Positions 28,126 to 46,637 of a stretch of DNA of 64,000 nt are shown here, in pieces; position 1 is the first letter of the stretch, and each line of letters opens with the position of its first letter. The stretch is from Shinella yambaruensis. Its GTDB lineage: Bacteria; Pseudomonadota; Alphaproteobacteria; Rhizobiales; Rhizobiaceae. The translations under genes and the position numbers were made by a program. The DNA lies in NCBI RefSeq assembly GCF_022899355.1, contig NZ_JALJCK010000002.1, positions 248,001 through 312,000 on the forward strand. Direction: 5' to 3'. A model generated the notes under the pieces. That model saw only the letters and a list, made by a program, of their open reading frames with translations, did no database searches and was not told the origin of the DNA.

Positions 28126-28153
28126 GACGAAAATCGAACGACGGGAGATCACC

Positions 28154-28924: not shown

Positions 28925-30505
28925 TCACGTTGAAAGCAGGAAGTCGGCGCAGCGCTCCGCGATCATGATGCAGGGCGCATTCGTGTTGCCGCTCACGAGT
29001 GTCGGCATGATCGAGGCGTCGGCGATGCGAAGGCGCGGGATACCCTGCACCCGCAGCCGGTTGTCGACGACCGACAGCCGGTCGCGGCCCATCCTGCAGG
29101 TGCCGGCCGGGTGGTAGACGGTCTTGGCATTGGCCCGCGCATGCGCCTCGAAATCCGCATCGGACGACTTCTCGTCTCCGGGTGCCAGTTCCCGGAAGCC
29201 GAGGGCCTTCATGGCGGGAGCGGCGAGAATTTCGCGCGAGAGCCTGATGCCGCGCACCAGGGTGTCGACGTCTTCCCGGGCGACCAGGTTGTTGCCGACG
29301 AAATGGATCGGATCCTCGACCCGGTTGCTGCGCAGCGAAACCTTGCCGCGCGAGACAGGGCGCAGGATGCAGGGATTGATCGAGACGCCATGGCCCTCCA
29401 TCTGGCCGCGGGTGGCATCGCCCACGAGGGTCGGCGTGACGTGGATCTGGATATCGGGCCGCCCGCAGCTCCCCGTGTCGATGAAACCGCCGCTTTCCAC
29501 CACATTCGACGACAAGAGGCCGGACCGCCCGAACAGATAGCGAAGCCCGTTTGCGACGGCCTTGAGGCCCTTGTCCTGGTCCTTCAGCGAGATCGGCCGA
29601 TCGGTGATGCCGTAGACGGAGACGGCGATATGGTCCTGGAAGTTTTCGCCGACACCGGGAAGGTCGCGGATGACCGGGATGCCATGCCGCGCGAGCATAT
29701 CGCCCGGGCCGATGCCGGACAGCATCAGGATTTTCGGCGTGGCGAGCGCCCCGGCGCAAAGGATGACCTCCTCTTTCGCCCGCGCCTCGAAAATGCCGCC
29801 GTCCCGCCGGCGATAGGCAAGGCCGGCAGCCGCGCCGTTCTCCAGGATGATCTTCGTTGCGATGCTCTCCGTGCTGATGTCCAGGAGAGGGGAGCAGCGC
29901 ACCGCCTTCAGGTAGGTCACCGCCGTGGAACCGCGCCGGGCATTCGTTGTCGTCGTCTGGTAGAAGCCGACGCCATCCTGCCGGGCGCCGTTGAAATCGT
30001 GCGAATAGGCAAGGCCGACCTGCTGCGCGGCCCGCACGAAGGCCGCGCTGATCGGATGGCGGAAGCGGGGCTCGGAGACCTTCAGGGGACCGCCGGTGCC
30101 GTGATAATCGTCGGCGAGAACCTCGTTGTCCTCCGAACGGCGGAAGACCGGCAGCACGTCCTCGTATCCCCAGCCCTTGCAGCCGAGGTCCCGCCAGGTG
30201 TCATAGTCCTCGGCCTGGCCGCGAATGTAGATCATCGCGTTGACGGACGAGCCGCCGCCGAGCGTCCTGCCTTGCGGCACGAGCAGGACCCGGTTGTTGG
30301 CGCCCGGCTCCGGCTCGGTGGCGTACATAAAAGTCCGCCGGGTGCCGAGAACCTTCACGAAGGTGGCGGGGATGTGGATATAGGGCGTGTTGTCGGCAGG
30401 CCCCGCTTCGAGAAGCAGGACGCTCTTGCCTGCCGTCACGAGCCGGTTTGCGAGAACGCAGCCGGACGAGCCGCCGCCGGCGATGATGTAGTCGTAGCTT
30501 TTCAT
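28925..30505 (-). CDS. GMC-family FAD alcohol dehydrogenase (choline-dehydrogenase-like)
   Basis: A 526-residue glucose-methanol-choline oxidoreductase. N-terminal FAD motif YIIAGGGSSGCVLANRL with a following LLLEAGP. Signature QGRTLGGGSSVNAMIYIRGQ, second signature GALATPKILMLSGIGP, and C-terminal active-site His in VYHPAGTCRMG plus Asn in SGNTNAP. It oxidises a primary or secondary alcohol to aldehyde or ketone. Last gene of the MarR-linked minus-strand operon, 7 bases after the aldehyde dehydrogenase, so alcohol-to-aldehyde-to-acid oxidation is the likely pairing. The substrate is unknown. Confidence 0.92.
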   Translation of the reverse strand: MKSYDYIIAGGGSSGCVLANRLVTAGKSVLLLEAGPADNTPYIHIPATFVKVLGTRRTFMYATEPEPGANNRVLLVPQGRTLGGGSSVNAMIYIRGQAEDYDTWRDLGCKGWGYEDVLPVFRRSEDNEVLADDYHGTGGPLKVSEPRFRHPISAAFVRAAQQVGLAYSHDFNGARQDGVGFYQTTTTNARRGSTAVTYLKAVRCSPLLDISTESIATKIILENGAAAGLAYRRRDGGIFEARAKEEVILCAGALATPKILMLSGIGPGDMLARHGIPVIRDLPGVGENFQDHIAVSVYGITDRPISLKDQDKGLKAVANGLRYLFGRSGLLSSNVVESGGFIDTGSCGRPDIQIHVTPTLVGDATRGQMEGHGVSINPCILRPVSRGKVSLRSNRVEDPIHFVGNNLVAREDVDTLVRGIRLSREILAAPAMKALGFRELAPGDEKSSDADFEAHARANAKTVYHPAGTCRMGRDRLSVVDNRLRVQGIPRLRIADASIMPTLVSGNTNAPCIMIAERCADFLLST

Positions 30506-30512
30506 CGGGCGC

Positions 30513-31943
30513 TCACAGGCCGATATGGCTGACGAACTTCGTCGTCAGGTAGGCGTCGAGCGTTTCGCTGCCGCCCTCGCTGCCGTAGCCGCTCTCCTTG
30601 AGGCCGCCGAAGGGCGTTTCCGCGGCGGCGATGCCGAAATGGTTGATCGAGACCATGCCGGCTTCAAGCTCGGTCGAAAACCGGTCGGCCGTCGCCAGCG
30701 AGCGCGTGAAGCCGAAGGCGGCGAGGCCGAAGGGCAGGCGGTTGGACCGCCGGATCGCCTCGTCGATGTCGGAGACGGGCACGAGCGCCGCAAGCGGGCC
30801 GAACGGCTCGTCATTCATGACCGCTGCGTCTTCCGGCACGTCGCCGAGCACCGTCGGCTCGAAGAAATAGCCGCTGTTGCCGATACGCTTGCCGCCGCAG
30901 TCCAGCCGGGCGCCATGCGAGACGGCGTCGTCCACGAAGCGCGCCATCGCATCGAGCCGCCGGGCGTGCGTGAGCGGGCCCATCTGCACGCCGTCCGACA
31001 GGCCGTCGCCGACCTTGATGGCGCGCGCACCGGCCACGAAGCCCGACCGGAAGGCGTCGTAGACGTCTTCCTCGATATAGAAGCGGGTGGGCGCTGCGCA
31101 GACCTGGCCGGCATTGCGGTATTTCAGCATCAGGCCGAGCTTGACGGCGGCCTCGACATCCGCGTCCTTCGCGACGATGTAGGGCGCATGGCCGCCGAGC
31201 TCCATCGTCGCGCGCTTGACCCCGGCGGCGGCCATCGCCCCGAGCTTCTTGCCGACCGGAACGGAGCCGGTGAACGAGATCTTGCGGATGACCGGCGAGG
31301 CGATGAGGTGCTCGGAAACCTCGGCGGCCGGGCCGAAGACGATGCCGAGCACGCCCGGCGGCAGGCCGGCATCCTGGAAGGCGCGGGCAAGCGCGATACA
31401 GGTGGACGGCGCCTCCTCCGGCGGCTTGGCGATGATCGAGCACCCGCTGGCGAGCGCGGCGGAGATTTTGCGCACGAGCTGGTTGATCGGGAAGTTCCAG
31501 GGGGTGAACGCGGCGACGGGGCCTACGGGCTCGCGCAGGACAACCTGGCGTGCGCCCGGCACGCGCGCGGGGATGACGCGGCCATAGGCACGCCGGCCCT
31601 CCTCGGCATGCCATTCGATGTGCTCGGCGGCGGCATTCGCCTCGCCTCGCGCCTCCGCGATCGGCTTTCCCTGTTCCCGCGACATGAGCTGCGCCATGGT
31701 TTCGGCACGCTCTCGCACAAGGGCGGCCGCCTTGTGCAGGATCTTCGCGCGGTCGAGGGCGGTGGTCCTGCGCCAGGTTTCGAAACCCTGCTGCGCCGCT
31801 TCCAGCGCCGCGTCGAGGTCGGCGCGTTCGCACAAGGCCAGTTGCGCGGTCACCTCGCCGGTTGCCGGATTGTGAACCCCGGCCGATCGGTTGCCGGCGG
31901 GCGCGCGCCATTCGCCGTTGATGAGAAGCGGTTTATCCAGCAT
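30513..31943 (-). CDS. NAD(P)-dependent aldehyde dehydrogenase (succinate-semialdehyde-dehydrogenase-like)
   Basis: A 476-residue ALDH with catalytic Glu in MELGGHAP (E248) and Cys in NAGQVCAAPTR (C282). Cofactor and fold marks: AAFTPWNFPINQLVRKI, FTGSVPVGKKL and the C-terminal EPFGPLAALVP. It closely follows the GabD-type layout. It should oxidise an aldehyde made by the GMC enzyme or by the aminotransferase of the co-regulated operon to a carboxylate, which the acyl-CoA ligase can then activate. The start overlaps the upstream gene by 11 bases. Confidence 0.93.
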   Translation of the reverse strand: MLDKPLLINGEWRAPAGNRSAGVHNPATGEVTAQLALCERADLDAALEAAQQGFETWRRTTALDRAKILHKAAALVRERAETMAQLMSREQGKPIAEARGEANAAAEHIEWHAEEGRRAYGRVIPARVPGARQVVLREPVGPVAAFTPWNFPINQLVRKISAALASGCSIIAKPPEEAPSTCIALARAFQDAGLPPGVLGIVFGPAAEVSEHLIASPVIRKISFTGSVPVGKKLGAMAAAGVKRATMELGGHAPYIVAKDADVEAAVKLGLMLKYRNAGQVCAAPTRFYIEEDVYDAFRSGFVAGARAIKVGDGLSDGVQMGPLTHARRLDAMARFVDDAVSHGARLDCGGKRIGNSGYFFEPTVLGDVPEDAAVMNDEPFGPLAALVPVSDIDEAIRRSNRLPFGLAAFGFTRSLATADRFSTELEAGMVSINHFGIAAAETPFGGLKESGYGSEGGSETLDAYLTTKFVSHIGL

Positions 31944-32940
31944 GGCTCAGTCCTTCACGAGAGCGTGTCATGGGGCGGGGCAGGGCGGCGAGCGCCGCCG
32001 CATAGTCCCGCGCGATGGCGGCGACGATGTCCGCCGCCGGTAGGATGTCGTCGACGAGGCCTGCGCTCTGGCCGGCCTCGACCTTGCCGTTCTCGACATC
32101 GCCGTCGAAGGCCGCGGCCTTGAGCGAGGCGGCGGCGAAGAGCGCCTTGCGCTCTTCCAATTGCCGTCCTTCCGCTTCCGCCGCCCCCATCCGTTCGCCA
32201 AAGTCGTTGCGCAGGATGCGGATCATGCCCAGGCCATGGCCGACCACCATCGTGTCGGTGACGGAGGCGGACAGCAGGCGCTGGCTGTAGGCGGCGTGCA
32301 GGCGCGCCTCGCAGGACAGCATGAAGCGCGTGCCGAACTGCGCCGCGCCGGCCCCCAGCGCCAGGGCGGCGGCAAGGCCGTATCCATCGGCAAAGCCGCC
32401 GCTGAGGATGAGCGGCACGCCGGGCACGGCTCTTATGATCGCACGGCCGAGAACGAGCGTGGAGACGAGATCCGGCGGAGGATGGCCGCCGGCTTCCCCG
32501 CCGACGGCGATGAGGCCGTCGACGCCGGCCGCCGCCGCCTTGGCCGCGTGCTCCGCACCGGCGACCACATGCAGGCAGACGGTGCCGATGGCCTTGAAGC
32601 GCTCGAGGTAGCGCTTCGGCCCGCCCTGGGAGGCGATGAGCACGGGCACGCGCTTTTCGACAAGGAGGTCCATGATCTCGTCGGCGCCCTTGCGATAGAG
32701 CGGCAGGTTGACGGCGAACGGCCTGTCCGTGCCCGCCCGCACCGCATCGATCGCCGCGGCGAGGTCGTGCGCATACATGGGACCTGCGGCGATCACGCCG
32801 AGACCGCCGGCGGCCGAAACGGCAAGCGGCAGGGCCGCGTTGGACGATGCCCACGACATGCCGGCCTGGATGATCGGCAGGTCGATGCCGAGAAGCTGCG
32901 TCACATCGGTTTCGATCCGCATGGGGGTTTCTATCCGCAT
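31933..32940 (-). CDS. Nitronate monooxygenase / 2-nitropropane dioxygenase family flavoprotein
   Basis: A 335-residue FMN TIM-barrel protein: LPIIQAGMSWASSNAALPLAVSAAGGLGVIAAG, AVGGEAGGHPPPD (FMN phosphate region) and PLILSGGFADGYGLAAALALGAGAAQFGTRFM. In catabolic operons with CoA enzymes, members are often enoyl or acyl reductase-like flavoproteins rather than true nitronate oxidases. The family also includes FabK-type enoyl reductases. The start is given at 32940, four bases after the ligase stop. An 18-bp tandem duplication repeats the start codon and first residues (MRIETPMRIETD), so 32922 is an alternative. Confidence 0.85.
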   Translation of the reverse strand: MRIETPMRIETDVTQLLGIDLPIIQAGMSWASSNAALPLAVSAAGGLGVIAAGPMYAHDLAAAIDAVRAGTDRPFAVNLPLYRKGADEIMDLLVEKRVPVLIASQGGPKRYLERFKAIGTVCLHVVAGAEHAAKAAAAGVDGLIAVGGEAGGHPPPDLVSTLVLGRAIIRAVPGVPLILSGGFADGYGLAAALALGAGAAQFGTRFMLSCEARLHAAYSQRLLSASVTDTMVVGHGLGMIRILRNDFGERMGAAEAEGRQLEERKALFAAASLKAAAFDGDVENGKVEAGQSAGLVDDILPAADIVAAIARDYAAALAALPRPMTRSREGLSHAG

Positions 32941-32945
32941 GGGGT
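32910..32945. repeat. 18-bp tandem duplication at a start codon
   Basis: Units at 32910-32927 and 32928-32945 match at 16 of 18 bases and share ATCCGCATGGGG. On the coding strand each unit supplies an ATG and the residues RIET, so the gene has two consecutive in-frame starts. It looks like a recent slippage event. Confidence 0.8.
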
Positions 32946-34567
32946 CACGCTCCGATCAGCTTGCGGGCGTGTTCGGCGAGCTGCTTCTTCTGGATCTTGG
33001 CGCTTGCCGTCATGCCGATCGCTTCGAAGCTCTCGACGATCCAGACATGGCGCGGCACCTTGAAGCCGGCCATGTTGGCCTTCGCCCAGTCCATGATCTC
33101 CGCCGGTTCGGCCTTGGCGCCCTCCTTCAGGATGACGAAGGCGCCGGTCACCTCGACGAGGCGTTCGTCCGGCACGCCGACCACCGCCGCCTGGCGGATC
33201 GCCGCATGGCGATGCAGGACGTTCTCCACGTCGGCCGGCGAAACGTTCTCGCCGCCGACGCGCACGATCTCCTTGGCGCGGCCGAGGAAGGTCAGCCTGC
33301 CGTTCTCGTCCAGCGCGCCGAGATCGCCGGTGGACAGCCAGCCGTCGGCCGAGAGCGCGGCCCGCGTTTCGGCGGGCTTGTCGAAATATTCCCGCATGAC
33401 GCTCCAGCCGCGCACGAGGATTTCCCCCGGTTCGCCGCAGGCGGCATCCTCGCCATCTTCCTTCAGGATGCGGACGTCGATGCCCGGTTGCGGCCGCATG
33501 GCGGCCGATATGCGGACGGCCTCCGGCTCCCACCAGGAGGATTGCGCGATGTTGGGCGCGGCTTCCGAAAGCCCGTAGCCGACGACGCATTCGCCTGCGC
33601 CGAGCTCGTCGATGACGCGGGCGACGATGGTCGGCGAGGCGGCGAGCCAGGCGCCGCGCAGGACGAGGCGGCGCGCCGGGCGCTCGGGATGGCTGAGCAG
33701 CATCAGCGCCATCGTGTCGTTGCCGGAGAAATGCGTGCAGCGCTCGGCCTCCATGAGACGCAGCGCCTCGCCCGGTTCGAACCGGTCCATGGAGACGAGC
33801 GTCGCCATGTGCTGGAGGCAGGAGAGGATGGAGAGCGTCGTGCCCGCGACGTGGAAGAACGGCCGGGCGCTATGGAACCGATCGCCGACGCGAAGGCCCA
33901 TGCGATGACCGGAGACGAAGGCGTTGCCCAGCATGCTGCGCTGGGTGAGGAGAACGCCTTTCGGAAAGGATGTGGTGCCGGACGTATACTGGATGAGCAG
34001 CGGGTCGTTGGCCTCGCCCCGTGCCTGCGCGGGCGCGGCGCCGCTTGCGAGCAGGGCCTCCCAGGCGAGGGCCGTAGGCGGCACGTTGTCTCCGATGACG
34101 ATCAGTTGCCTGAGATCCGGAAGGGCGAGGGCGGGCAGCCGGTCGGTGAGCGCGGGGTCGATCTGCCGCAGCAGGCCGATGAAATCGATCTTGAGGAACC
34201 GGTCGCACAGGATAAGGCGCGAAACCTTCGACTGGGAAAGCGCATAGGCCATCTCGGCGGCGACGAAACGGGTGTTGATCGGCACGGTCACCGCGCCGAG
34301 CGAGCCGATCGCCAGAAAGATCGCCACCCAGCGCGTGGAATTGCCGAGGCAAAGGCCGATGTGCTCGCCCTTCCTCACGCCCTGCGCCGCCAGTCCGTCG
34401 CGGATGCGTGCGACCTCGGCGGCGAGCGCGGCATAGGTCAGCCGCCCGTCTGTCGCCACGACGGCCTCGACATCGCCGGCAAGCGTTGCGGCCCGCGCCA
34501 GTGCGGCGGAGATCGTCGTTGCGCAGAGCGCGTCGATGTCGAAGGGGGCGGCATGGTCAGAGATCAT
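32945..34567 (-). CDS. Acyl-CoA synthetase (AMP-forming, ANL superfamily)
   Basis: A 540-residue ligase that activates a carboxylic acid with ATP and CoA. Motif A3 is IQYTSGTTSFPKGVLLTQ, later GYGLSEAAPN (A5), DGWLSTGDLG (A7), GRAKEIVRVGGENVSPADVE (A8) and the catalytic Lys in MTASAKIQKKQL (A10). No membrane segment. The start at 34567 overlaps the enoyl-CoA hydratase stop by 11 bases. The chain type cannot be told from sequence; its place beside an aldehyde dehydrogenase suggests it takes that enzyme's acid product. Confidence 0.92.
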   Translation of the reverse strand: MISDHAAPFDIDALCATTISAALARAATLAGDVEAVVATDGRLTYAALAAEVARIRDGLAAQGVRKGEHIGLCLGNSTRWVAIFLAIGSLGAVTVPINTRFVAAEMAYALSQSKVSRLILCDRFLKIDFIGLLRQIDPALTDRLPALALPDLRQLIVIGDNVPPTALAWEALLASGAAPAQARGEANDPLLIQYTSGTTSFPKGVLLTQRSMLGNAFVSGHRMGLRVGDRFHSARPFFHVAGTTLSILSCLQHMATLVSMDRFEPGEALRLMEAERCTHFSGNDTMALMLLSHPERPARRLVLRGAWLAASPTIVARVIDELGAGECVVGYGLSEAAPNIAQSSWWEPEAVRISAAMRPQPGIDVRILKEDGEDAACGEPGEILVRGWSVMREYFDKPAETRAALSADGWLSTGDLGALDENGRLTFLGRAKEIVRVGGENVSPADVENVLHRHAAIRQAAVVGVPDERLVEVTGAFVILKEGAKAEPAEIMDWAKANMAGFKVPRHVWIVESFEAIGMTASAKIQKKQLAEHARKLIGA

Positions 34568-35336
34568 GATTTTCCTTGCCTCCGACGCTGTTCGCGAAGC
34601 GGTTCAGGCCATCGCGCCAGCCGCCGTCCGCCAGGCACCGCTCGATCGCGGCCATTTCGACGCGGATGCCGTTGTTGAGGTCGGTTTCGCTGCCGAGATC
34701 CACCGCCTGCTTGGTCAGCGCCATGGCAAGCGGTGGCGCGGCGGCGATCGCCTCGGCGATGCCGGCGATGGTTTCGGCCAAGGCTTCCGCCGGCACGATG
34801 CGGGCGACGAGGCCAAGCTGGTAGGCCTCCTCGACCGGCATGGTGCGGCCGGTGAACAGGAGTTCCTTGGCCCGCATCTTGCCGATCGTGCGTTGCAGGC
34901 GCTGCGTTGCGCCGACCGTGCCCCATTGCGGCTCGGGGAAGCGGAAGGTCGTCCTGTCCGATGCGATGACGAAGTCGCAGCTCATCAGGATCTCGCCGCC
35001 GGAGCCGACCACGGGGCCTTGCGTTGCCGCGACCACCGGCTTGCGGCAGCGGGCAATGGCGTCGTAGGCGGCGAAGGAGGCGCGCCGCCGGGCGATCACC
35101 CAGGCCTCGTCCCGGCCGTTGCGCTCCTTCAGGTCCGCTCCGGCGCAGAAGACGGGACCGTTCGCCGAAAGCACAACGGCGCGGATATCGGCATCGGCAT
35201 CGAGCGCCTCGAAAATCTCCTTCAGGGCAAGGCACATCGGCAGATTGAGGGCGTTGCGCGCTTCCGCGCGGTCGAGGACCACATGGGCGACACTCTCCTC
35301 GCGCCGCAGGAGAACCGGGGGGGTTGCTTTGCTCAT
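34557..35336 (-). CDS. Enoyl-CoA hydratase/isomerase family protein
   Basis: A 259-residue crotonase-fold protein with VVLSANGPVFCAGADLKE (oxyanion region) and QGPVVGSGGEILMSCDFVIASDRTTFRFPEPQWG. The first catalytic Glu of classical hydratases is at the expected GGEILM position. It likely hydrates or isomerises an unsaturated acyl-CoA. It shares one base with the upstream CaiB stop (TGATG) and overlaps the ligase start. One of two hydratases in this operon, the other starting at 37269; they are clearly different in sequence, so probably act on different intermediates. Confidence 0.9.
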   Translation of the reverse strand: MSKATPPVLLRREESVAHVVLDRAEARNALNLPMCLALKEIFEALDADADIRAVVLSANGPVFCAGADLKERNGRDEAWVIARRRASFAAYDAIARCRKPVVAATQGPVVGSGGEILMSCDFVIASDRTTFRFPEPQWGTVGATQRLQRTIGKMRAKELLFTGRTMPVEEAYQLGLVARIVPAEALAETIAGIAEAIAAAPPLAMALTKQAVDLGSETDLNNGIRVEMAAIERCLADGGWRDGLNRFANSVGGKENHDL

Positions 35337-36523
35337 CAGATCACTCCCTCATTCCTCAGCCGGTCGATGGTCTCGGCCGGCATGCCCAGCTCCCCGGCAA
35401 GCAGCGCCGCCGTGTCCGCACCGAGCGGCGGCGGGCAGCCGATGACGGGATCCTCGTAGCCCGCAAAGCGCAGCGGCGTGCGCAAGGCGCGGACGGTGCC
35501 CTCCTCCGGGTGGTCGAACGTGCCGACCACGCCGCGGGCCTCACTGTGGGGATCGCTCAGGATCTCGCGGACCGTGTTCACCTCGCCGGCCGGCACGCCG
35601 CGGTCTCGCAGCGCCTCGGCGAGCGGTCCGCGTTCGCGCTGCGCGATCGCCTGCCGCATGTCCGCCATCACCCGTTCGCGGGCGGCGACGCGGGCGGCGT
35701 TCTTCCTCAAGGCCGCGTCGGCGGCAAGATCGTCGAGGCCGAGGACCCCGCAGATATCGTCCCAGTGCTGGTCGCTGCCGCTGATATGCAGCCATGTGCC
35801 ATCGGCGCACTGGAACGCCGCGGAGGGAACGCGGCCCGGATGCTCCGTTCCCGAGCGGCCGATATCCTCGCCCAGCGCGAAGAGGCGGGCGGCGGCAAGC
35901 GCCAGGAGGCTCGTCTGGACATCCATCATCGACAGGTCGACATGGCATCCCCGGCCGCTGCGCCCGCGCCCGACCAGTCCCGTCAGGATCGCGATCGCGA
36001 TCCACAGGCCGGAGGTCATGTCCGAGACCGGAATGCCGGCCTTGGCGGGCGGCGCGTCGGGATGGCCGGTGAGATGCATGATACCGGAGAGCGCCTGGAA
36101 GATCGTGTCGTAACCATTGCGCAGGCGATAGGGCCCGGTCTGCCCGAAGCCGGTATTGGAGACATAGACGAGGCCGGGATTGCGGCGGGAGAGCGCGTCG
36201 TAGCCGAGATTGAAGCGGTCCATCTCGCCGGGCAGGAAGTTCTCCAGAACGACGTCGTGCGTCTCCGCCAGCCTGGCGGCGATCTCCTGTCCTTCCGGAG
36301 ATTTCAGGTTCAGCGTCATGGAGCGCTTGGCGCGGTTGAACGCGAAGAAATAGGCGCTTTCGCCGCGGGGCAGCCGGGGCTCGAACAGGCGGGATTCATC
36401 GCCCGTGCCCGGCCGCTCGACCTTCGTCACCTCCGCGCCGAGCTCGGCGAGGATCTGCGTCGCCATGGGGCCGGCGAGCACGCGGGAAAAGTCGAGGATG
36501 CGGATGCCTTCCAGCGGCTTCAT
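35336..36523 (-). CDS. CaiB/BaiF family (class III) CoA-transferase
   Basis: A 395-residue CoA-transferase: KPLEGIRILDFSRVLAGPMATQILAELGAEVTKVERPGTGDESR at the N-terminus, NRAKRSMTLNLKSPEGQEI, then the catalytic Asp region in PVSDMTSGLWIAIAILTGL. C-terminal RFAGYEDP is also typical. It moves CoA between acids, giving a second route to thioesters besides the ligase. The ATG at 36523 is preferred over a GTG six bases upstream because GGGAGG stands 7-8 bases before it and the stop of the previous gene meets it as TGATG. Confidence 0.92.
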   Translation of the reverse strand: MKPLEGIRILDFSRVLAGPMATQILAELGAEVTKVERPGTGDESRLFEPRLPRGESAYFFAFNRAKRSMTLNLKSPEGQEIAARLAETHDVVLENFLPGEMDRFNLGYDALSRRNPGLVYVSNTGFGQTGPYRLRNGYDTIFQALSGIMHLTGHPDAPPAKAGIPVSDMTSGLWIAIAILTGLVGRGRSGRGCHVDLSMMDVQTSLLALAAARLFALGEDIGRSGTEHPGRVPSAAFQCADGTWLHISGSDQHWDDICGVLGLDDLAADAALRKNAARVAARERVMADMRQAIAQRERGPLAEALRDRGVPAGEVNTVREILSDPHSEARGVVGTFDHPEEGTVRALRTPLRFAGYEDPVIGCPPPLGADTAALLAGELGMPAETIDRLRNEGVI

Positions 36524-37269: not shown

Positions 37270-37277
37270 GAGAAATC

Positions 37278-38204
37278 CTACGCTGCCAGATGGCCGAAAC
37301 CGGTGCGCGCCACCTTGCTCTGCAACTCGCGCCCAAGCGCCTGCTCGCATTGCAGCGAGGCGGCCTGGAGCCTGTCGATGTCGATGCCGGTCGCAATGCC
37401 CTCGGCCTCGAAGAGATTGACGAGATCTTCCGTCGCCACATTGCCGGTATAGCCGCCGCCATAGCGGATCTGGGCGGGGTGGCCGCCGACGCCGCCGATC
37501 GCGCTGTCGAACCAGCGGCAGCCGACCTCGTAGGCGGCCATGCAATTGGCGATGCCGGTGCCGCGCGTGTCGTGGAAATGGGCGATGGGCGTGACGTCGG
37601 GCACCTCGGCCATGGCGCGGGCAAAGAGGCGGCGCACGCTGCCGGGCGTGCCGTGGCCGGTCGTGTCGCAGATGGAGACGTGGCGCACGCCGAGGTCGGA
37701 GAAGGCCTTCAGGTCGCCGATGACGGATGCCGGGTCGACCCGGCCCTCGAAGGGGCAGCCGAGCGCCATGGAGATCACGCCGATCAGGCGGAACCCGCCA
37801 TCCGCCAGCGCGACCATCTCGGCAATGTTGCGCCATTGCTGCTCGCGCGTCGTGCGCAGGTTCTTCTCGGTGTGCGCCTGTGTCGCCGACACGAGCAGGC
37901 TTATCTCCTCCGGTCCATGGCCGGCTTCTCGATCCTCGATTGCTCGTCTGACGGCATGAAGGTTGGGGCAGGTCGCCTTGTAGGCCGTGCCGGGCCGGCG
38001 GCGGATGCCGGCCAGCACGTCGCTGGCATCGGCGAAGACCGGCACTTGGCGGGGGCTGCTGTAGCTCGTCGCTTCCACGCGCGGGAAGCCGGCTTCGGAA
38101 ATGGCGTCGATCAGGGCGATCTTGGTTTGCGTGGAAAGGTCCGTCGTTTCGTGCTGCAAGCCGTCCCTTGCAAAGCACTCGCAGATTGTCAGCGCCTCCG
38201 ACAT
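37278..38204 (-). CDS. HMG-CoA lyase-like TIM-barrel protein with a changed active-site motif
   Basis: A 308-residue member of the HMGL/DRE-TIM family. It keeps the Arg-Asp in ECFARDGLQHE (R13, D14) and the metal His pair in AHFHDTRGTG (H209, H211). The signature GGLGGCP, whose Cys is catalytic in HMG-CoA lyase, reads GGVGGHP (His at 242), followed by five extra residues before the TGNVATEDLV end. It probably cleaves or condenses a different 3-hydroxyacyl-type substrate, or uses another residue. GGGAGG lies 8 bases before the ATG. First gene of the operon; a MarR-type site lies 42 bases upstream. Confidence 0.85.
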   Translation of the reverse strand: MSEALTICECFARDGLQHETTDLSTQTKIALIDAISEAGFPRVEATSYSSPRQVPVFADASDVLAGIRRRPGTAYKATCPNLHAVRRAIEDREAGHGPEEISLLVSATQAHTEKNLRTTREQQWRNIAEMVALADGGFRLIGVISMALGCPFEGRVDPASVIGDLKAFSDLGVRHVSICDTTGHGTPGSVRRLFARAMAEVPDVTPIAHFHDTRGTGIANCMAAYEVGCRWFDSAIGGVGGHPAQIRYGGGYTGNVATEDLVNLFEAEGIATGIDIDRLQAASLQCEQALGRELQSKVARTGFGHLAA

Positions 38205-38245
38205 CTCGATCCTCCCGGTTTCCTTGGAGGTAGTGATGCGAAATT

Positions 38246-38264
38246 TAGTTCATATTGTCAACTA
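38246..38264. promoter_or_regulatory. MarR-type operator, copy A
   Basis: TAGTT, nine bases, AACTA: a 19-bp inverted repeat in the 79-bp gap before the HMG-CoA-lyase-like gene. Read on the minus strand it contains TTGACA, a -35-like hexamer, so a bound regulator would cover the promoter. Two further copies occur at 38899 and 38920. Confidence 0.72.
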
Positions 38265-38283
38265 TAATTCTGGCGTTGCATGT

Positions 38284-38850
38284 TCACTCCTCGTCCAGTT
38301 CGCGCAGATCCTCCTGGGATGCCCTGGTTTTCAGGTCGTGGAAATAATGTGCGCTGTTGCGTCCCACCCGCTGCAGCAGTTCGATCAGGATCTGTCGTTC
38401 GGCGTGGCTGAGGGTCGAGAGCATGTTTTCGTTGCGCTCGAAGGCGTCGGCCAGGATCGCCTGCGACAGGTCCAGCCCCTCCGGGCTGAGCTTGAGCAGG
38501 ATGCTGCGCCCGTCCTCGGGATTGGCGGTCTTCAGGATGTAGCCGCGCTCGATCATCGACGAAACCGTCCGGCTCATCTGGCTTTTCAGCAGTCCGCTGT
38601 GTTTCGCCAGTTCCTGGAGCGGTACTTCGCCGAGATATTTGAGAACGGCGAGCGCGCGCCATTCGCGCGCGGTGATGCCGTATTTCGGCCGGATCGAAAG
38701 GGCCGCGATGCGGGTGGAAAGGCCGGCCAGCCGCTGCAGCTCGAAGGAGAACAGGTCCCGTATGTCCGGTTCGCTCTTCTGGGGCGCCAGGTGTCCGCGA
38801 AAGAAACTGCCGTCGGAGCGGTCCGTCATGTTTTCGACTTTCTTATTCAA
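38284..38850 (-). CDS. MarR-family transcriptional regulator
   Basis: About 188 residues with the MarR winged helix: YGITAREWRALAVLKYLGEVPLQELAKHSGLLKSQMSRTVSSMIERGYILKTANPEDGRSILLKLSPEG. Conserved D and R of the wing (PEDGRS) are present. Start choice is uncertain: TTG at 38850 has AGGAG seven bases upstream, ATG at 38829 lacks a good site, and GTG at 38865 is also in frame. It lies between the CoA catabolic operon and the polyamine-type operon, and three copies of one inverted repeat surround it. It probably represses both until an aromatic or acyl-CoA-like effector binds. Confidence 0.9.
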   Translation of the reverse strand: MNKKVENMTDRSDGSFFRGHLAPQKSEPDIRDLFSFELQRLAGLSTRIAALSIRPKYGITAREWRALAVLKYLGEVPLQELAKHSGLLKSQMSRTVSSMIERGYILKTANPEDGRSILLKLSPEGLDLSQAILADAFERNENMLSTLSHAERQILIELLQRVGRNSAHYFHDLKTRASQEDLRELDEE

Positions 38851-38898
38851 ATGGTTGCTCCTCACGGTTCCCGCCGGGTCATTTTATGCGCAGAAATT

Positions 38899-38917
38899 TA
38901 GTTGACAAGGTGAACAA
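38899..38917. promoter_or_regulatory. MarR-type operator, copy B
   Basis: TAGTT, nine bases, AACAA: matches copy A with one changed base in the second arm and is close to its reverse complement. A TTGACA hexamer starts at 38902. It lies 34-49 bases upstream of the candidate MarR starts, so it can serve autoregulation. Confidence 0.65.
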
Positions 38918-38919
38918 TA

Positions 38920-38938
38920 TAGTTCATCTCATTAACTA
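38920..38938. promoter_or_regulatory. MarR-type operator, copy C
   Basis: TAGTT, nine bases, AACTA: arms identical to copy A. Its centre is 21 bases, two helical turns, from the centre of copy B, so two dimers could bind the same face. It lies on the side of the polyamine-type operon (binding-protein start 39028). Confidence 0.7.
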
Positions 38939-39027
38939 GATTGGCACGCAGGGAACGGAATGTCGATCATGCATTCGGGCCGTGGAGGATGGCTCCGGCC
39001 GGGCATCACCAGAGGAGGAACTTGGTA

Positions 39028-40071: not shown

Positions 40072-40093
40072 TCGAACGAGCCGGGAGGACAGG

Positions 40094-41161
40094 ATGCGCT
40101 CGGGCAGAGTCAACCTTCGCGAGGTCCACAAGGCCTATGGCAGCTTCAGGGCGCTCGACGGCGTTTCCCTGGATATCAAGGCGGGGGAGTTCCTGACGCT
40201 TCTCGGCCCTTCCGGCTCGGGAAAGACCACGCTTCTCAACGTCATCGCCGGCTTCGAGCGGCCCGATCTCGGCAGCTTGCTGGTCGATGACGTCGAGTTC
40301 ATCACGCGTCCGCCGCACAAGCGCGACCTTGGCATGGTGTTCCAGAACTATGCGCTGTTCCCTCACATGGACGTCTTCTCGAACGTTGCCTATCCGCTGA
40401 AGCTGCGGAAGGTGGACAGGCCCTCCATCCGCAGGCGAGTGATGGACGCGCTGGAGATCGTGCACATGCAGCACCTTGCCGACCGGCGCATCACCGCGCT
40501 GTCGGGCGGCCAGCGCCAGCGTGTGGCGCTGGCGCGCGCCTTCGTCTTCGAGCCGCGCCTGCTGCTGATGGACGAGCCGCTCTCCGCACTCGACAAGAAC
40601 CTGCGCGAACACATGCAGATTGAGCTCAAGCGGCTGCACAGGCAGCTCGGCATGACGACGATCTATGTCACGCACGACCAGCAGGAGGCCCTGACCATGT
40701 CGGACCGCATCGCGGTTCTCGACAAGGGAAGGATCATCCAGCTCGACGTGCCCGCGACGGTCTACGACCGCCCGAACTGCAAGTTCGTCGCGGGCTTCAT
40801 GGGCGAGACCCGCTTCCTGCCCGTCGAGCGCCGCGATCAGACCTATGTCCTCGACGGACGACCGCTCCGGCTTGCCGATACGAGGGCCGCCTCATCGACG
40901 GGGGAGGCCTGGCTCATGGTCCGCCCGGAGCGGCTGCGCTGGCAGGGCGATGCCGACCGCGACAACCGCATCGAGGGCAGGGTGCTCGATGTCGTCTATC
41001 GGGGGGATTGCAACCAGGTTTCCGTCTCGCTGCCCGGTGGCCATGAGGTCGCTATCCGCCATTCCGGGGCGGAACGGCAACCTTTGCCGCAGCCTGGCGA
41101 TACCCTTGCCCTGTGGCTGCCGGCGGAAGCGAGCCTCGTCATCGGGAGCGCCGCGCCATGA
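40094..41161 (+). CDS. Polyamine-type ABC transporter ATPase (PotA-like)
   Basis: A 355-residue ATPase. Walker A GPSGSGKTT, Q-loop GMVFQNYALFPHMDVFSNVAYPLKLR, signature LSGGQRQRVALARAF, Walker B LLLMDEPLSALDKNLRE and switch His VTHDQQEALTMSDR. A C-terminal TOBE domain (about 240-355; WLMVRPERLRW, GDCNQVSVSLPGGHEV) is typical of PotA. Begins 22 bases after the binding-protein stop and overlaps the permease start by 4. Confidence 0.93.
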   Translation: MRSGRVNLREVHKAYGSFRALDGVSLDIKAGEFLTLLGPSGSGKTTLLNVIAGFERPDLGSLLVDDVEFITRPPHKRDLGMVFQNYALFPHMDVFSNVAYPLKLRKVDRPSIRRRVMDALEIVHMQHLADRRITALSGGQRQRVALARAFVFEPRLLLMDEPLSALDKNLREHMQIELKRLHRQLGMTTIYVTHDQQEALTMSDRIAVLDKGRIIQLDVPATVYDRPNCKFVAGFMGETRFLPVERRDQTYVLDGRPLRLADTRAASSTGEAWLMVRPERLRWQGDADRDNRIEGRVLDVVYRGDCNQVSVSLPGGHEVAIRHSGAERQPLPQPGDTLALWLPAEASLVIGSAAP

Positions 41162-42060
41162 CGCTCGCCATGGACGGAGCCCCGGGCATGCCGCTCAATC
41201 GCGCCATGCTCAAGAGCGCCAGGCGCCGGGAACGGCGCATTTTCAGCGGGCTTGCCCTGCCGGCGCTGGTCCTCGTCGCCTGCATTCTTCTCATCCCCTT
41301 TGCCTGGCTTGCCTGGCTGTCGCTGTTCGACGCCGCCGGCAATCTCTCGGCCCAGAACTATGCCCGGCTGCTGCGGCCCGCCTATGTCGGCAGCTTCCTC
41401 ACCACCTTCAAGGTCGCCGGCCTGGTGACGGCGCTGTGCGTGGTCTTCGGCTATCCGGTCGCCTATCTCCTGTCGCAGCTTTCCGCGCGTGCCGCGCAGA
41501 TCCTCCTGGTGTTCGTCATCCTGCCGTTCTGGACGTCGGTGCTGGTGCGCACCTATGCTTGGTTGGTCCTGTTGCAGCGCAACGGCGTCATCAACGACTG
41601 GCTGCTTTCGATGGGCGTGATCGACGAGCCGCTTGCGCTGGTGCACAATCTGACGGGCACGATCATCGGCATGGTGCATGTCATGCTGCCCTTCCTGATC
41701 CTGCCGCTCTATGCGTCCATGAAGGCGATCGACCCGGTGCTTTTGCGCGCGGCGGCCAATTGCGGCGCCTCGCCGAGCCAGGCGTTCCGACAGGTCTTCC
41801 TGCCTTTGTCGATGCCCGGCCTTGCCTCGGGTATTGCGCTGACCTTCGTGCTTTGCCTCGGTTTCTACCTGACGCCGGCCCTTCTCGGCGGCGGCCGTGT
41901 CGCCATGTGGTCCACGCAGATCGCCGATGCCGTTTCGAAATTCTCCAACTGGGGCGCGGCGAGCGCCCTCAGCGTGGCGCTGCTGGTGGTGACGGCCGTC
42001 GTTCTGTGGGGCGTGCGCAGGCTGACCGACGCCTTGAGCTTTTCCGCGGGGAAACCATGA
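41158..42060 (+). CDS. Polyamine-type ABC transporter permease (PotB-like)
   Basis: A 300-residue inner-membrane permease with six hydrophobic segments and the coupling loop LLRAAANCGASPSQAFRQVFLPLSMPGLASG. SVLVRTYAWLVLLQRNGVIN is typical of PotB/PotH. The ATG at 41158 overlaps the ATPase stop (ATGA). The stop overlaps the next permease start in the same way. Confidence 0.92.
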   Translation: MTLAMDGAPGMPLNRAMLKSARRRERRIFSGLALPALVLVACILLIPFAWLAWLSLFDAAGNLSAQNYARLLRPAYVGSFLTTFKVAGLVTALCVVFGYPVAYLLSQLSARAAQILLVFVILPFWTSVLVRTYAWLVLLQRNGVINDWLLSMGVIDEPLALVHNLTGTIIGMVHVMLPFLILPLYASMKAIDPVLLRAAANCGASPSQAFRQVFLPLSMPGLASGIALTFVLCLGFYLTPALLGGGRVAMWSTQIADAVSKFSNWGAASALSVALLVVTAVVLWGVRRLTDALSFSAGKP

Positions 42061-42869
42061 TGCTGAACACGCCTGCCACCTCCACCCAGGTCACGCATGG
42101 CCAGCGCCTCTGGCTCTATGCGACGGTTGCGCTCGTCATGACCTTCCTGGTCATTCCCTGCATCCTCGTCATCCCCATGTCGTTCTCGGACTCGCAATAT
42201 CTCGAGTTTCCGCCGCGCAGCCTCAGCCTGCGCTGGTACGAAGCCTTCTTCACCTCGCCGGAATGGATCCAGTCCGCGGTGGTCTCGCTCAAGGTGGCGG
42301 GCCTTACGACGGTGCTGGCCACCGTGCTCGGCACGCTGGCCTCCTACGGGCTCTACAAGGCGACCAGCCTCTTCACGCCGATTACCCGGGGCCTCTTGAT
42401 GCTGCCGATGATGATCCCGCTGATCTTCGTCGCCATCGGCGTGTTCTTCGTCTACGCCCGCTTCGGGCTCAACAACACCATCACCGGCCTCGTCCTGGCG
42501 CATACCACGCTCGCCATCCCCTTCGTCATGATCGCCGTCGGCAACGGGCTGAAGAGTTTCGACCCCAACCTCGAACGTGCCGCCCGCAGCCTCGGGGCCT
42601 CGCCCGTGACGGCCTTTCTCACCGTCACGCTGCCGCAGATCCGCATCTCGGTCTTCTCCGGCATGCTGTTCGCCTTCGTCACGTCCTTCGACGAGGTCGT
42701 CGTCTCGCTGTTCGTGTCGAGCGGCGCGAACTCCACGCTGACCAAGCGCATGTTCGCCAATATCCGCGACCAGGTCGATCCGACCGTCGCCGCCATCTCG
42801 TCCATGCTGGTGGCCCTGTCGATCGTCGTGCTGATCGCCGCCCAGTTCGTGAAGCGCAAGGACGCGTGA
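42057..42869 (+). CDS. Polyamine-type ABC transporter permease (PotC-like)
   Basis: A 270-residue permease with six hydrophobic segments. Coupling loop LERAARSLGASPVTAFLTVTLPQIRISVFSG, then FAFVTSFDEVVVSLFVSS, a PotC/PotI hallmark. Starts at the first of two adjacent ATGs (42057), after GGGGAAACC. A long in-frame extension into the upstream genes is open but not coding. Completes the importer. Confidence 0.92.
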   Translation: MMLNTPATSTQVTHGQRLWLYATVALVMTFLVIPCILVIPMSFSDSQYLEFPPRSLSLRWYEAFFTSPEWIQSAVVSLKVAGLTTVLATVLGTLASYGLYKATSLFTPITRGLLMLPMMIPLIFVAIGVFFVYARFGLNNTITGLVLAHTTLAIPFVMIAVGNGLKSFDPNLERAARSLGASPVTAFLTVTLPQIRISVFSGMLFAFVTSFDEVVVSLFVSSGANSTLTKRMFANIRDQVDPTVAAISSMLVALSIVVLIAAQFVKRKDA

Positions 42870-42911
42870 CGGCCGTCCGATACGCCCCGCATCCCATTTC
42901 AGGAGGAAACC

Positions 42912-44294
42912 ATGTACAATTCGCTGCGCATGCGCGACATCGCGTCCCAGATCCACCCGCAGACCAATCTTGCCGCCCACGAGACTGTCGGGCCGACGAT
43001 CATGGCCCGCGGCGAGGGTGCCTATGTCTATGACGACGACGGCAAGCAATATATCGAGGGCATGTCCGGCCTCTGGTGCGCGGCGCTCGGTATGAGCGAG
43101 AAGCGGCTGGTCGATGCGGCGACGCGCCAGCTCAATACCTTGCCCTACTACCAGAACTTCGCCCATCGCGCGACGGAGCCGGCGATCGAGCTTTCGGAGC
43201 GCCTCCTGAAGATCGCGCCGGTGCCGATGTCCAAGGTGCTCTTCCAGAGCTCCGGCTCGGAGGCGAACGACACCGCCGTCAAGCTCGCCTGGTACTATTT
43301 CCACGCTCAGGGCAAGCCGGAAAAGAAGAAGATCATCGCGCGCAACCGCGGCTATCATGGAACCTCGATCGGTTCGGCCAGCATCACCGGCCTGCCGCAC
43401 CTGCACCGGGAGTTCAACCTGCCGCTGCCGGGCTTCCTGCACGTCACATGCCCGCATTTCTATCGCGAGGGCAGGCCGGGGGAGACGGAGGAGGATTTTG
43501 CCACGCGTCTTGCGGAGGAGCTGGATGCGCTGATCTTGGCGGAGGGGCCGGATACGGTTGCGGCCTTCTTCGCCGAGCCGGCCATGGGGACGGGCGGCGT
43601 CGTCATTCCGCCGAAAACCTATTTCGAGAAGATCCAGAAGGTTCTGAAGAAGCACGACGTCCTGCTCGTGGCCGACGAGGTCATCACCGGCTTCGGGCGC
43701 ACCGGCGCCTGGTGGGGAAGCCAGACCTTCGGGCTGGAGCCGGACATGATCACCTGCGCCAAGGCGCTGACCGCCGCCTATATGCCGCTGTCGGCGGTGC
43801 TGCTTTCCGAACGGCTTTATGCCGGCATGAAGGCGCAAAGCGAGAAGATCGGCGTCTTCGGCCATGGTTATACCTACGGCGCGCATCCCGTTGCCTGCGC
43901 CGTCGGTGTCGAGGCGCTGAGGATCTACGAGGAGGACGGTATCATCGACGGTGTCGCAGCGCTCGGGGAGCGCATGGCCGAGGGCATGATGCCGCTTGCC
44001 GAGCATCCGCTCGTCGGCGAGGTGCGCGGCGTCGGCCTGATGTGGGGCGTCGAGATCGTCCGCGACAAGCGGACGCGCGAAGCCTTCCCCGCCGACATGC
44101 AGTTCGGCATCGGCATCCAGAACCGCGCCTTCGAGAACGGGCTGGTCTGCCGTTCGCTCGGCACGGCGATCGCCTTCGCGCCGCCGCTCATCAGCACGCC
44201 GGAGCAGATCGACGCGATCGTCTCGCGGTTCCGCGACGCTCTCGACAGGTCTCTCGACGCCTACCTTGCCGGCGGCGGCCGGCTCGGCGAATGA
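42912..44294 (+). CDS. Class III (omega) aminotransferase
   Basis: A 460-residue PLP enzyme. PLP-phosphate region FQSSGSEANDTAVKLA, PLP ring Asp in LLVADEVITGFGRTG (D255), Schiff-base Lys in ITCAKALTAAYMPLSAV (K284) and FGHGYTYGAHPVACA. It resembles amine:pyruvate and putrescine-type aminotransferases, which convert a terminal amine to an aldehyde. It has AGGAGG before the ATG and follows the polyamine-type transporter. The aldehyde could be handed to the aldehyde dehydrogenase at 30513-31943, whose operon carries the same operator element. The exact amine donor is not determined. Confidence 0.92.
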   Translation: MYNSLRMRDIASQIHPQTNLAAHETVGPTIMARGEGAYVYDDDGKQYIEGMSGLWCAALGMSEKRLVDAATRQLNTLPYYQNFAHRATEPAIELSERLLKIAPVPMSKVLFQSSGSEANDTAVKLAWYYFHAQGKPEKKKIIARNRGYHGTSIGSASITGLPHLHREFNLPLPGFLHVTCPHFYREGRPGETEEDFATRLAEELDALILAEGPDTVAAFFAEPAMGTGGVVIPPKTYFEKIQKVLKKHDVLLVADEVITGFGRTGAWWGSQTFGLEPDMITCAKALTAAYMPLSAVLLSERLYAGMKAQSEKIGVFGHGYTYGAHPVACAVGVEALRIYEEDGIIDGVAALGERMAEGMMPLAEHPLVGEVRGVGLMWGVEIVRDKRTREAFPADMQFGIGIQNRAFENGLVCRSLGTAIAFAPPLISTPEQIDAIVSRFRDALDRSLDAYLAGGGRLGE

Positions 44295-44306
44295 GGGGAG
44301 GCCATC

Positions 44307-45326
44307 GTGCTGGCGATCCATGACGAACGGCAGGCGCTGCACCGGCCGCTGACGCGCATTGCGGGCGGCGTGCTGAAACCCAATCTCGAGGTTCCCGAGC
44401 GCATAGCGCTGCTGCGCGAGGGGTTGGCGCTGGCCGGTATCGATGTCGTCGCGCCCGCCGGCGACGATGAGGGCCTGATCCGTGCGTTGCATGATGTCGG
44501 CTACCTCGATTTCCTCGAGAACGGCTTTGCCGCCTGGCGCGCAATCCCGGGCAATGGCCCGGAGCTGCGGTCCAGCATCCATCCGAACATCTACATGAAC
44601 CGGCGTCCCGACGATCTTCTCGGCCGCGCCGGCTTCTACCAGGCCGATGCGGGCTGCGTTCTGGTGGAAGGAACCTGGCAGGCCGCCCGGGCGAGCGCGC
44701 TGACGGCGCTCGATGCCGCGGCGCGCGTGCTTGAAGGCGAAGGCATGATCTACGCCCTGTGCCGGCCGCCTGGCCACCATGCCTATCGCGACAAGGCCGG
44801 CGGCTTCTGCTACCTCAACAATTCCGCCCTTGCCGCCGAACGGGCGGTCCTGGCGGGGCGGCGCGTCGCGATCCTCGACATCGATGTGCACCACGGCAAC
44901 GGGACGCAGACGATGTTCTACGATCGCGGTGACGTGCTGACGCTGTCGGTGCATGGCGATCCTGCATATCTCTATCCCTACTATGCCGGCTATGCCGACG
45001 AGGCCGGGACCGGCGCGGGGGTGGGAAGGAACCGCAATTTCCTCCTTCCGCTCGGCAGCGACGGCGCGGCGTACCGGGTGGCGGTGCGGGCGGCCTGTGA
45101 CGAAGTCCGACGGTTCGGCGCCGACTTCCTGGTCCTTGCCCTCGGCCTCGATGCGTCCGTGAACGATCCTTTCGCCTGCATGACGGTGAACGACGAGGAC
45201 TTCGCCCGCATCGCGGAGGACATTGCGGATCTACGGATCCCGACCGTCATCGTTCAGGAAGGGGGTTATGTCTCGCCATTCCTCGCCGGAACGCTGGCCG
45301 CCTTCCTTTCCGGAATCTCCCGATAG
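44307..45326 (+). CDS. Acetylpolyamine amidohydrolase-like enzyme (histone-deacetylase superfamily)
   Basis: A 339-residue zinc hydrolase. All active-site elements are visible: tandem His in RPPGHHAY (H157, H158), zinc ligands in DIDVHHGNG (D193, H195) and GLDASVNDPF (D282), and the transition-state Tyr in QEGGYVS (Y321). Length and spacing follow acetylpolyamine amidohydrolase of Mycoplana ramosa closely. It should remove an acetyl (or other acyl) group from an imported N-acylated amine, freeing the amine for the aminotransferase just upstream. GTG start at 44307 with GGGGAGG before it. Last gene of the operon, followed by a good terminator. Confidence 0.9.
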   Translation: MLAIHDERQALHRPLTRIAGGVLKPNLEVPERIALLREGLALAGIDVVAPAGDDEGLIRALHDVGYLDFLENGFAAWRAIPGNGPELRSSIHPNIYMNRRPDDLLGRAGFYQADAGCVLVEGTWQAARASALTALDAAARVLEGEGMIYALCRPPGHHAYRDKAGGFCYLNNSALAAERAVLAGRRVAILDIDVHHGNGTQTMFYDRGDVLTLSVHGDPAYLYPYYAGYADEAGTGAGVGRNRNFLLPLGSDGAAYRVAVRAACDEVRRFGADFLVLALGLDASVNDPFACMTVNDEDFARIAEDIADLRIPTVIVQEGGYVSPFLAGTLAAFLSGISR

Positions 45327-45689: not shown

Positions 45690-45893
45690 GGAAGGAAAGT
45701 GGGCTGTTCGCGACGCGTGGTCGCGGAGGGACGCCTGAATTCCGTCCGCTCGAAGGCAGGCGCCGGTGGCTCTCGCGGGCCGCGGCCTCGCCTCGCGTCG
45801 TTGCGGCGCTTGCGATCGGCCTCTCTTTCAGCCACATGATCATTTTCAAGATCGGTGACGAGCAAGTCCGCCTTTGGAGCGCAAGTGAGTGCG

Positions 45894-46547: not shown

Positions 46548-46637
46548 GTAATGGGCATATCTGTACGTTCTGGAATTCCTGAAATTTAAAGGGTAACCTC
46601 GCAGGTTCTCCAACATTCAGTGTGTTTCCATGCAATT

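Follow-up and report, generated by a model that had tools for sequence, protein, structure and literature searches.

A two-operon cassette around one MarR gene

The DNA considered here is a 64-kb window (64,000 nucleotides, taken as a whole stretch) of the genome of Shinella yambaruensis, in which positions 28925-45326 are occupied by a candidate catabolic cassette made of two operons arranged around a single gene for a MarR-family regulator. Operon 1 (28925-38204) lies on the minus strand, with the MarR gene upstream of it on the same strand; operon 2 (39028-45326) is encoded on the plus strand, divergently from the MarR gene. From the gene of a 3-hydroxy-3-methylglutaryl-coenzyme A (HMG-CoA) lyase-like enzyme onward, the genes of the minus-strand operon are separated by gaps of 8 bp at most or overlap by 11 bp at most. 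In an annotated Shinella record, the MarR start is set at the equivalent of 38850. Genes and palindromes are listed below.

28925..30505, minus strand: GMC (choline-dehydrogenase-like) oxidoreductase, last gene of the cassette
30513..31943, minus strand: aldehyde dehydrogenase (ALDH); top model succinate-semialdehyde dehydrogenase (SSADH), under its cut-off
31933..32940, minus strand: FMN enzyme of the nitronate monooxygenase/FabK family, from family models and PDB matches
32945..34567, minus strand: AMP-forming acyl-CoA ligase, from family models
34557..35336, minus strand: crotonase ECH1, with both catalytic Glu kept (hydratase pattern)
35336..36529, minus strand: CaiB/BaiF class III CoA-transferase; closest named relatives succinate-glutarate/HMG transferases, under the equivalog cut-off
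36523..37269, minus strand: crotonase ECH2, with Gly at the first catalytic Glu position and the second Glu kept
37278..38204, minus strand: HMG-CoA-lyase-like enzyme with GGH replacing the lid GGC; NCBIfam PRK05692, 260.6 bits for a cut-off of 246
38246..38264, no strand: palindrome O1, exact TAGTT-N9-AACTA, in the 79-bp MarR-lyase gap, 41 bp before the lyase start
38284..38865, minus strand: MarR-family regulator; Pfam MarR 47.8 bits, HpaR-like 47 bits (under that model's cut-off)
38899..38917, no strand: palindrome O2, one mismatch (TAGTTGACAAGGTGAACAA), between the MarR and binding-protein genes
38920..38938, no strand: palindrome O3, exact, preceding the transporter operon; spacing to O2 21 bp, close to two turns of the helix
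39028..40071, plus strand: ABC substrate-binding protein; named PDB relatives mostly opine and gamma-aminobutyrate (GABA) receptors
40094..41161, plus strand: ABC ATPase of the PotA type, from a model match
41158..42060, plus strand: PotB-like ABC permease, from a model match
42057..42869, plus strand: second ABC permease ('PotC'), from its position and the label 'ABC transporter permease' in an annotated Shinella record
42912..44294, plus strand: class III omega-aminotransferase (AT3); nearest solved relative 6g4b
44307..45326, plus strand: HDAC-superfamily amidohydrolase, acetylpolyamine-amidohydrolase-like, with intact catalytic residues

The initial annotation had assigned roles to these genes, and the enzyme families it named are present, except that the binding protein falls short of PotD and that the flavoprotein belongs to the nitronate monooxygenase/FabK family. 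It had also placed one 19-bp element at three positions: the match is exact at 38246 and 38920, whereas the copy at 38899 carries one mismatch that had gone unstated.

With one mismatch at most, TAGTT-N9-AACTA occurs three times in the window against 0.07 expected, and none of 100 shuffled sequences reaches three. At two mismatches, the same three copies stand against 1.32 expected and 13 of the 100 shuffles reach three, a result that alone is not significant. Genome-wide (6.87 Mb), the exact element is found at three places, two of them in the window, and with one mismatch at 11 places including the three described here, for 33 matches of the reversed control, so that these ten letters lack specificity by themselves. 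Exact copies of the refined palindrome TNGTTSAYNNNRTSAACNA stand at two places of the genome, both in the cassette, and it matches 13 places with one mismatch allowed, three of them here, for 2 matches of its control.

Enzyme families of the core and of the amine front end

For comparison, 80 loci from GTDB genomes were retained as the best of 576 stretches encoding relatives of the lyase. The search for them used the peptide patterns [ILM]CECFARD and [MV]A[LF]GCPFE, so conservation of the residues within these patterns is circular; the GGH motif lies outside both. Residues were counted from our own gene calls over 89 loci (the 80 GTDB loci, 7 plasmid loci and 2 Shinella loci), retaining sequences that passed length and identity limits, for instance 83 lyases. 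The loci, labelled L followed by a number, include near relatives and repeats (L026 duplicates L009).

The lyase exceeds the cut-off of PRK05692, a broad HMG-CoA-lyase subfamily model, and its closest solved relatives are HMG-CoA lyases (EC 4.1.3.4), with which it shares the family, the RDGLQ motif, and the HxH and Asn of the metal site. These metal-site residues are kept among the aligned relatives, with H209, H211, and N255 in 83/83 and D14 in 81/81, the latter count being partly circular because D14 belongs to one of the search peptides. Unlike HMG-CoA lyases, which have GGCP in the lid, the enzyme of the window carries GGHP together with a 4-residue insertion, and it differs around RDGLQ, where His replaces Asn after the motif (80/82 aligned sequences). 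GGH is found in all 83 aligned relatives as in the window, whereas the two other homologues encoded by the same genome (E<=1e-20) keep GGC. The enzyme is not a canonical HMG-CoA lyase.

These features bear on an alternative in which an ordinary HMG-CoA lyase is at work and the core degrades 3-methylglutaconate- or HMG-type acids from leucine or isoprenoid carbon, the CaiB protein re-activating acetoacetate or HMG. The PRK05692 score, the solved relatives, and the intact metal site speak for it, as do the matches of CaiB, whose closest solved relatives include succinate-HMG CoA-transferase among others. Against it stand the His-bearing lid with its insertion, the His after RDGLQ, the two GGC homologues present elsewhere in the genome, and the lack of any carboxylase among the cassette genes. 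Ordinary leucine/HMG breakdown was rejected on the lid and the missing carboxylase, and the alternative as a whole is considered improbable.

Both catalytic Glu of ECH1 are present in 84/84 aligned sequences. In ECH2, the first of these positions is Gly and the second Glu in 92/92, outside the two-Glu hydratase pattern, in an arrangement that we take to be that of enoyl-CoA isomerases. The top NCBIfam model of CaiB is succinate-glutarate CoA-transferase, below its cut-off, and the best PDB matches are 4ed9, an entry of unspecific name, followed by succinate-HMG CoA-transferase. The flavoprotein passes the Pfam NMO model, and its single NCBIfam match is FabK, under the cut-off; its PDB matches are 3bo9 (putative nitroalkane dioxygenase, 222.7 bits), FabK entries (221.4 bits), and 6e2a (nitronate monooxygenase, 131.5 bits).

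In the plus-strand operon, the importer had been called PotDABC-like, a name that does not suit the binding protein. Indeed, this protein scores 46.6 bits on a PotD model whose cut-off is 582, and its PDB matches are 4i1d (unspecific name, 247 bits), MotA (217), a GABA sensor (154), and an agropine permease (153), followed by 4eq7 (named 'Polyamine', 138) and by spermidine/putrescine-binding entries at 97 bits and lower. Opine and GABA receptors thus predominate among the best named relatives, and the single 'Polyamine' entry, 4eq7, is itself presumably a GABA receptor. Polyamine import as such was rejected since the binding protein falls short of PotD. The ATPase passes the PotA subfamily model TIGR01187 (380 bits, cut-off 355.6), and the first permease reaches 187.7 bits on the PotB model, under its cut-off of 348.

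The active site of the amidohydrolase (HH pair, DxH, Asp, and Tyr) is kept in the window and in 20/20 aligned relatives; its five best PDB matches are all named acetylpolyamine amidohydrolase, and no NCBIfam model matched it. The likeness to acetylpolyamine amidohydrolases lies in the catalytic residues, from which activity on acetylated polyamines can at most be predicted, while the neighbours and the importer of the window gene give no pointer to polyamines as such. An HDAC-like amidohydrolase with 47.6% identity to that of the window was seen on a Pararhizobium qamdonense plasmid (L120:3506-9011) along with a GNAT acetyltransferase, an aminotransferase, and a 3-keto-5-aminohexanoate cleavage protein, a gene set that presumably resembles one for N-acetyl-beta-lysine-type breakdown. 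The aminotransferase has as its nearest solved relative 6g4b, which we take to be the 6-aminohexanoate aminotransferase of Pseudomonas jessenii itself. The entry is given as a transaminase of 'P. jensenni' in PMC12226076.

Conservation of sites, gene order, and front ends

At the scale of near relatives, the MarR protein was found at E<=1e-20 in 4 of 151 genomes searched, the Shinella yambaruensis genome included, all of one genus, and both operons are present in order in all three others. In a class-wide sample of 385 genomes, it was found, besides its own genome, in 5 genomes at 30-35% identity, and the lyase at E<=1e-90 in its own genome only. Among the GTDB loci, the order PotC-PotB-PotA-binding protein-MarR-lyase-ECH2-CaiB-ECH1-ligase-flavoprotein, counted among homologues of the window genes, is kept in 11/80, from Shinella, Ensifer, Rhizobium, Brucella pecoris, Mesorhizobium, and Phyllobacterium; one of them (L031) has two extra open reading frames over about 2.5 kb between MarR and the lyase.

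Sites with one mismatch at most are present in both the MarR-binding protein and MarR-lyase intervals of the window and of all 14 other loci of the same order, which comprise these 11 (L009 standing for its duplicate) plus L010, L011, and L018, several of them being close relatives. The 21-bp tandem before MarR is kept in the window and in the 14 loci as well, the second member having two mismatches in L011. Among the 151 relatives, the four genomes that encode MarR have exact tandems and 2 of the 147 others have one with one mismatch; the reversed control matches one genome.

The sites also accompany the genes where the order has changed. In L045, L053, and L070, arranged as MarR-ALDH-binding protein-PotABC-lyase, sites are located before MarR and before the ALDH gene. 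Six betaproteobacterial loci (L068, L073, L078, L082, L089, and L092) have a site between the lyase gene and a divergent pair of intradiol-dioxygenase-like genes, with one mismatch in L078. In Actinobacteria, the consensus becomes GTGTTGAC-NNN-RTCAACAC, with variation, and one GTT-N9-AAC site before MarR plus one in the MarR-lyase gap are found in 29/29 loci (28 of the 80 and the Rhodococcus plasmid L023). Where these genes were called, the actinobacterial MarR gene is divergent to the ALDH-aminotransferase-Pot genes or to an MFS transporter gene.

Over the 80 loci, exact GTTSAYNNNRTSAAC is found 65 times in the 54,430 bp upstream of lyase and MarR genes, compared with 8 times in 1,510,737 bp elsewhere, the reversed control giving 0 and 0. 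With one mismatch allowed, the counts are 104 in these zones and 54 elsewhere, against 4 and 8 for the control. A site lies upstream of the lyase in 51/80 loci and upstream of MarR in 36/68. Since sites flank MarR in the loci of the same order and variant sites do so in all 29 actinobacterial loci, both operons look like one predicted regulon common to two phyla. The initial annotation had joined the two operons by one MarR operator and had named their co-occurrence in related genomes among its tests; the comparison is in its favour, with sites and synteny kept in rhizobial relatives and equivalent sites in Actinobacteria.

The palindromes could instead be promoter elements or sites of another regulator. 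Their arms contain TTGAC, a -35-like TTGTCA that would belong to the MarR promoter (38908-38903, minus strand) overlaps O2, and the binding of MarR to the sites is a prediction. Nevertheless, both arms are conserved, the tandem keeps its 21 bp, the sites follow the module under the changed gene order of L045, L053, and L070, and in two phyla they lie on either side of MarR, which makes this explanation highly unlikely.

For the distribution of the genes, the core was defined as the lyase, the two crotonases, CaiB, the acyl-CoA ligase, and the FabK-like flavoprotein, with thresholds of 35% identity and 40% of length; the counts of core and front-end genes are lower bounds because each locus was cut off at 10 kb or by the end of its contig. 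At least five of the six core genes are found in 71 of the 80 best loci. Among these 71 core loci, AT3 and ALDH are encoded in 29, three or more Pot genes in 35, and both sets in 28, of which 12 also encode the amidohydrolase; the GMC oxidoreductase is encoded in 11. Core and front end occur together in Alphaproteobacteria, Betaproteobacteria, and Actinobacteria. Other companions of the core, with the family of each checked on one representative or a few, include MFS proteins, enolase-superfamily proteins, intradiol dioxygenases, cobalamin-independent-synthase-like proteins, APH-kinase/aminotransferase fusions, RidA, and amidohydrolases. The core also stands beside genes labelled in annotated records as TRAP and tripartite-tricarboxylate transporters, and beside branched-chain-type ABC genes, read from the sequences.

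The cassette is carried on plasmids in several relatives. A binding protein of at least 57% identity was found in 7 plasmid records, each with the core CaiB, the next one being at 41.7% (best 40 of 68 records). For the amidohydrolase, 8 plasmid records reach at least 57%, of which 6 hold the core lyase or CaiB and the other 2 are from Mesorhizobium ciceri. In the one M. ciceri record examined, the amidohydrolase gene adjoins a PotC fragment 88% identical to the PotC of the window over 141 residues, an arrangement read as a putative decayed cassette. A Polaromonas sp. P1-6 plasmid (L024) holds most of the cassette, the ligase, lyase, PotB, a binding protein, aminotransferase, amidohydrolase, and ALDH matching in pieces; either sequencing errors or decay could account for these split genes.

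Some neighbourhoods are of separate interest. In the six betaproteobacterial loci, the pair adjoining the MarR core consists of two small intradiol-dioxygenase-like genes (PcaG/PcaH-like by reading; Pfam Dioxygenase_C in L078), which suggests a catechol-derived acid as the substrate there. An APH-family kinase is fused or adjacent to a class III aminotransferase in L053 (15153-17519), at the left end of L081, and in L022 (4243-6595), an arrangement presumably like that of hydroxylysine kinase and phospho-lyase. In Gemmobacter fulvus (L019:23245-23928), the ligase gene of the module is separated from the ABC genes by a cupin of the DMSP-lyase family. In the window itself, the cassette is followed, within 45855-51125, by a TetR gene and a sarcosine-oxidase beta-like gene (46790), as in L011 and L025; neither gene was detected in the sequence retrieved for L009 and L010. 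On the other side (26257-28912), a thiamine-diphosphate enzyme of the acetolactate-synthase superfamily and an SDR protein are encoded convergently to the GMC end of the cassette.

Proposed route and comparison with known systems

Taken together, the gene families and their neighbourhoods point, with a probability of about 0.6, to a MarR-repressed cassette that would convert an N-acyl omega-amino compound into a dicarboxylate, then into its CoA ester, and finally into acetyl-CoA and an oxo-acid. The MarR repressor would sit on O1, before the lyase operon, and on the O2/O3 tandem, which would serve its own gene and the transporter operon, and would probably be released on binding the substrate or an intermediate. 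The plus-strand operon would import the N-acylated omega-amino compound, from which the HDAC-like enzyme would take off the acyl group; the omega-aminotransferase would then give a semialdehyde and the aldehyde dehydrogenase a dicarboxylic acid. In the minus-strand core, the ligase, CaiB, or both would form the CoA ester, ECH2 would shift and ECH1 hydrate a double bond, and the lyase would split the 3-hydroxyacyl-CoA in a retro-aldol manner into acetyl-CoA and an oxo-acid. Somewhere en route, a double bond would probably be reduced by the FabK-like flavoprotein. The order of deacylation, transamination, aldehyde oxidation, CoA activation, hydration, and cleavage, as first suggested in the initial annotation, fits the families found. 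Regarding the acid, our best guess is a dicarboxylate with some six carbons, either unsaturated or branched, from three weak hints: the 6-aminohexanoate-type transaminase, the intradiol (muconate-forming) dioxygenases of some loci, and the enolase-superfamily companions. Beta-lysine, mevalonate/anhydromevalonate, 3-carboxymethylmuconate/3-methylmuconate, and octopamine-type amino alcohols were considered as candidates, which no direct result excludes or supports.

Several observations weigh against this reading. Many loci hold the core with no amine genes, so that the substrate shared by all is probably the acid, with the amine as one of its sources; the 'complete pathway for an N-acylated amine' of the initial annotation would accordingly describe at most one of several front ends. 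The amidohydrolase is encoded, in any setting, in just 17 of the 71 core loci, and the AT3 and ALDH of Actinobacteria, 38-44% identical to those of the window, may be of different subfamilies. As for the sites, 54 of the 158 found for GTTSAYNNNRTSAAC at one mismatch fall outside the scanned zones, and 21 of the 80 loci have none in these zones even at one mismatch, although several of them (Pigmentiphaga type) have a site with one mismatch at most just before ECH1, outside the zones; Bosea-type loci have neither site nor MarR in the fetched stretch. Part of the site conservation could reflect the TTGAC of the arms as a -35 element instead of an operator, and related strains were counted separately, so that the locus counts are not independent events. 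Finally, the six-carbon estimate is drawn by analogy, and MarR binding, expression, and growth on the substrate are predicted from sequence.

The loci with a bare core also bear on an alternative in which the regulon is real and the two operons serve different nutrients under a common inducer, namely a GABA- or opine-like amine and an unrelated acid derived from plants or aromatic compounds. Cores that stand without amine genes beside MFS, TRAP, tripartite-tricarboxylate transporter, or intradiol dioxygenase genes agree with it. The joint presence of front end and core in the Alpha-, Betaproteobacteria, and Actinobacteria speaks for a shared pathway, as does the fact that, among the best 40 of the 68 plasmid records, close relatives of the binding protein are seen only where the core CaiB is also encoded. 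Separate nutrients are considered unlikely, though less so than ordinary HMG breakdown.

A more far-reaching proposal, tentative and somewhat short of even odds, is that the lyase represents a new subfamily with a His-bearing lid acting on a different 3-hydroxyacyl-CoA, that the regulon of Alpha-, Betaproteobacteria, and Actinobacteria is an undescribed one with one MarR sensor and an ancient operator, and that it provides a new route for C6-type dicarboxylates. If true, there would be a further general ending for the breakdown of branched or unsaturated dicarboxylates of this type, besides thiolysis and carboxylase-dependent HMG cleavage, and these dicarboxylates could be reached from amines, amino alcohols, catechol-cleavage products, or imported acids. 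In two phyla, bacteria of soil and plants combine the core genes with the sensor and the site, and the database names HMG-CoA lyase, nitronate monooxygenase, and spermidine/putrescine transporter may mislead for the products. If the proposed reading is right, the nutrient would be one used by many such bacteria, and the annotation of the lyase subfamily (83 sequences here) would have to be corrected.

No description of this gene set was found in the literature searched for it, considering the top-ranked matches with few subscription journals covered. In beta-rhizobia, a lyase/CaiB pair rises on Mimosa root exudate (PMC5789663); this pair may or may not belong to the GGH subfamily. The auxin-degradation iad loci resemble the cassette in having a MarR repressor over the breakdown of a plant compound with CoA-linked steps, whereas the passages describing them name an acyl-CoA synthase and a ketothiolase and do not name a lyase-CaiB-crotonase core (PMC9613470, PMC12633357). 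The iad pathway was rejected as an identity for the cassette on account of these different enzymes.

A close parallel is the caprolactam pathway of P. jessenii, in which an assayed aminotransferase turns 6-aminohexanoate into 6-oxohexanoate and an SSADH-like dehydrogenase, inferred in that work, is proposed to yield adipate (PMC6061476). Both systems pair an SSADH-like dehydrogenase with an omega-aminotransferase of one and the same class, and the two enzymes are proposed to lead from an omega-amino acid to a dicarboxylate, on which CoA activation would follow. The P. jessenii pathway is fed by an ATP-dependent lactamase and ordinary beta-oxidation is proposed to follow, whereas the cassette has an HDAC-like amidohydrolase, a lyase-based core, a MarR gene, and a Pot-type importer. 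The regulon can be filed with the MarR-controlled CoA catabolic clusters, among which it has a distinct lyase subfamily.

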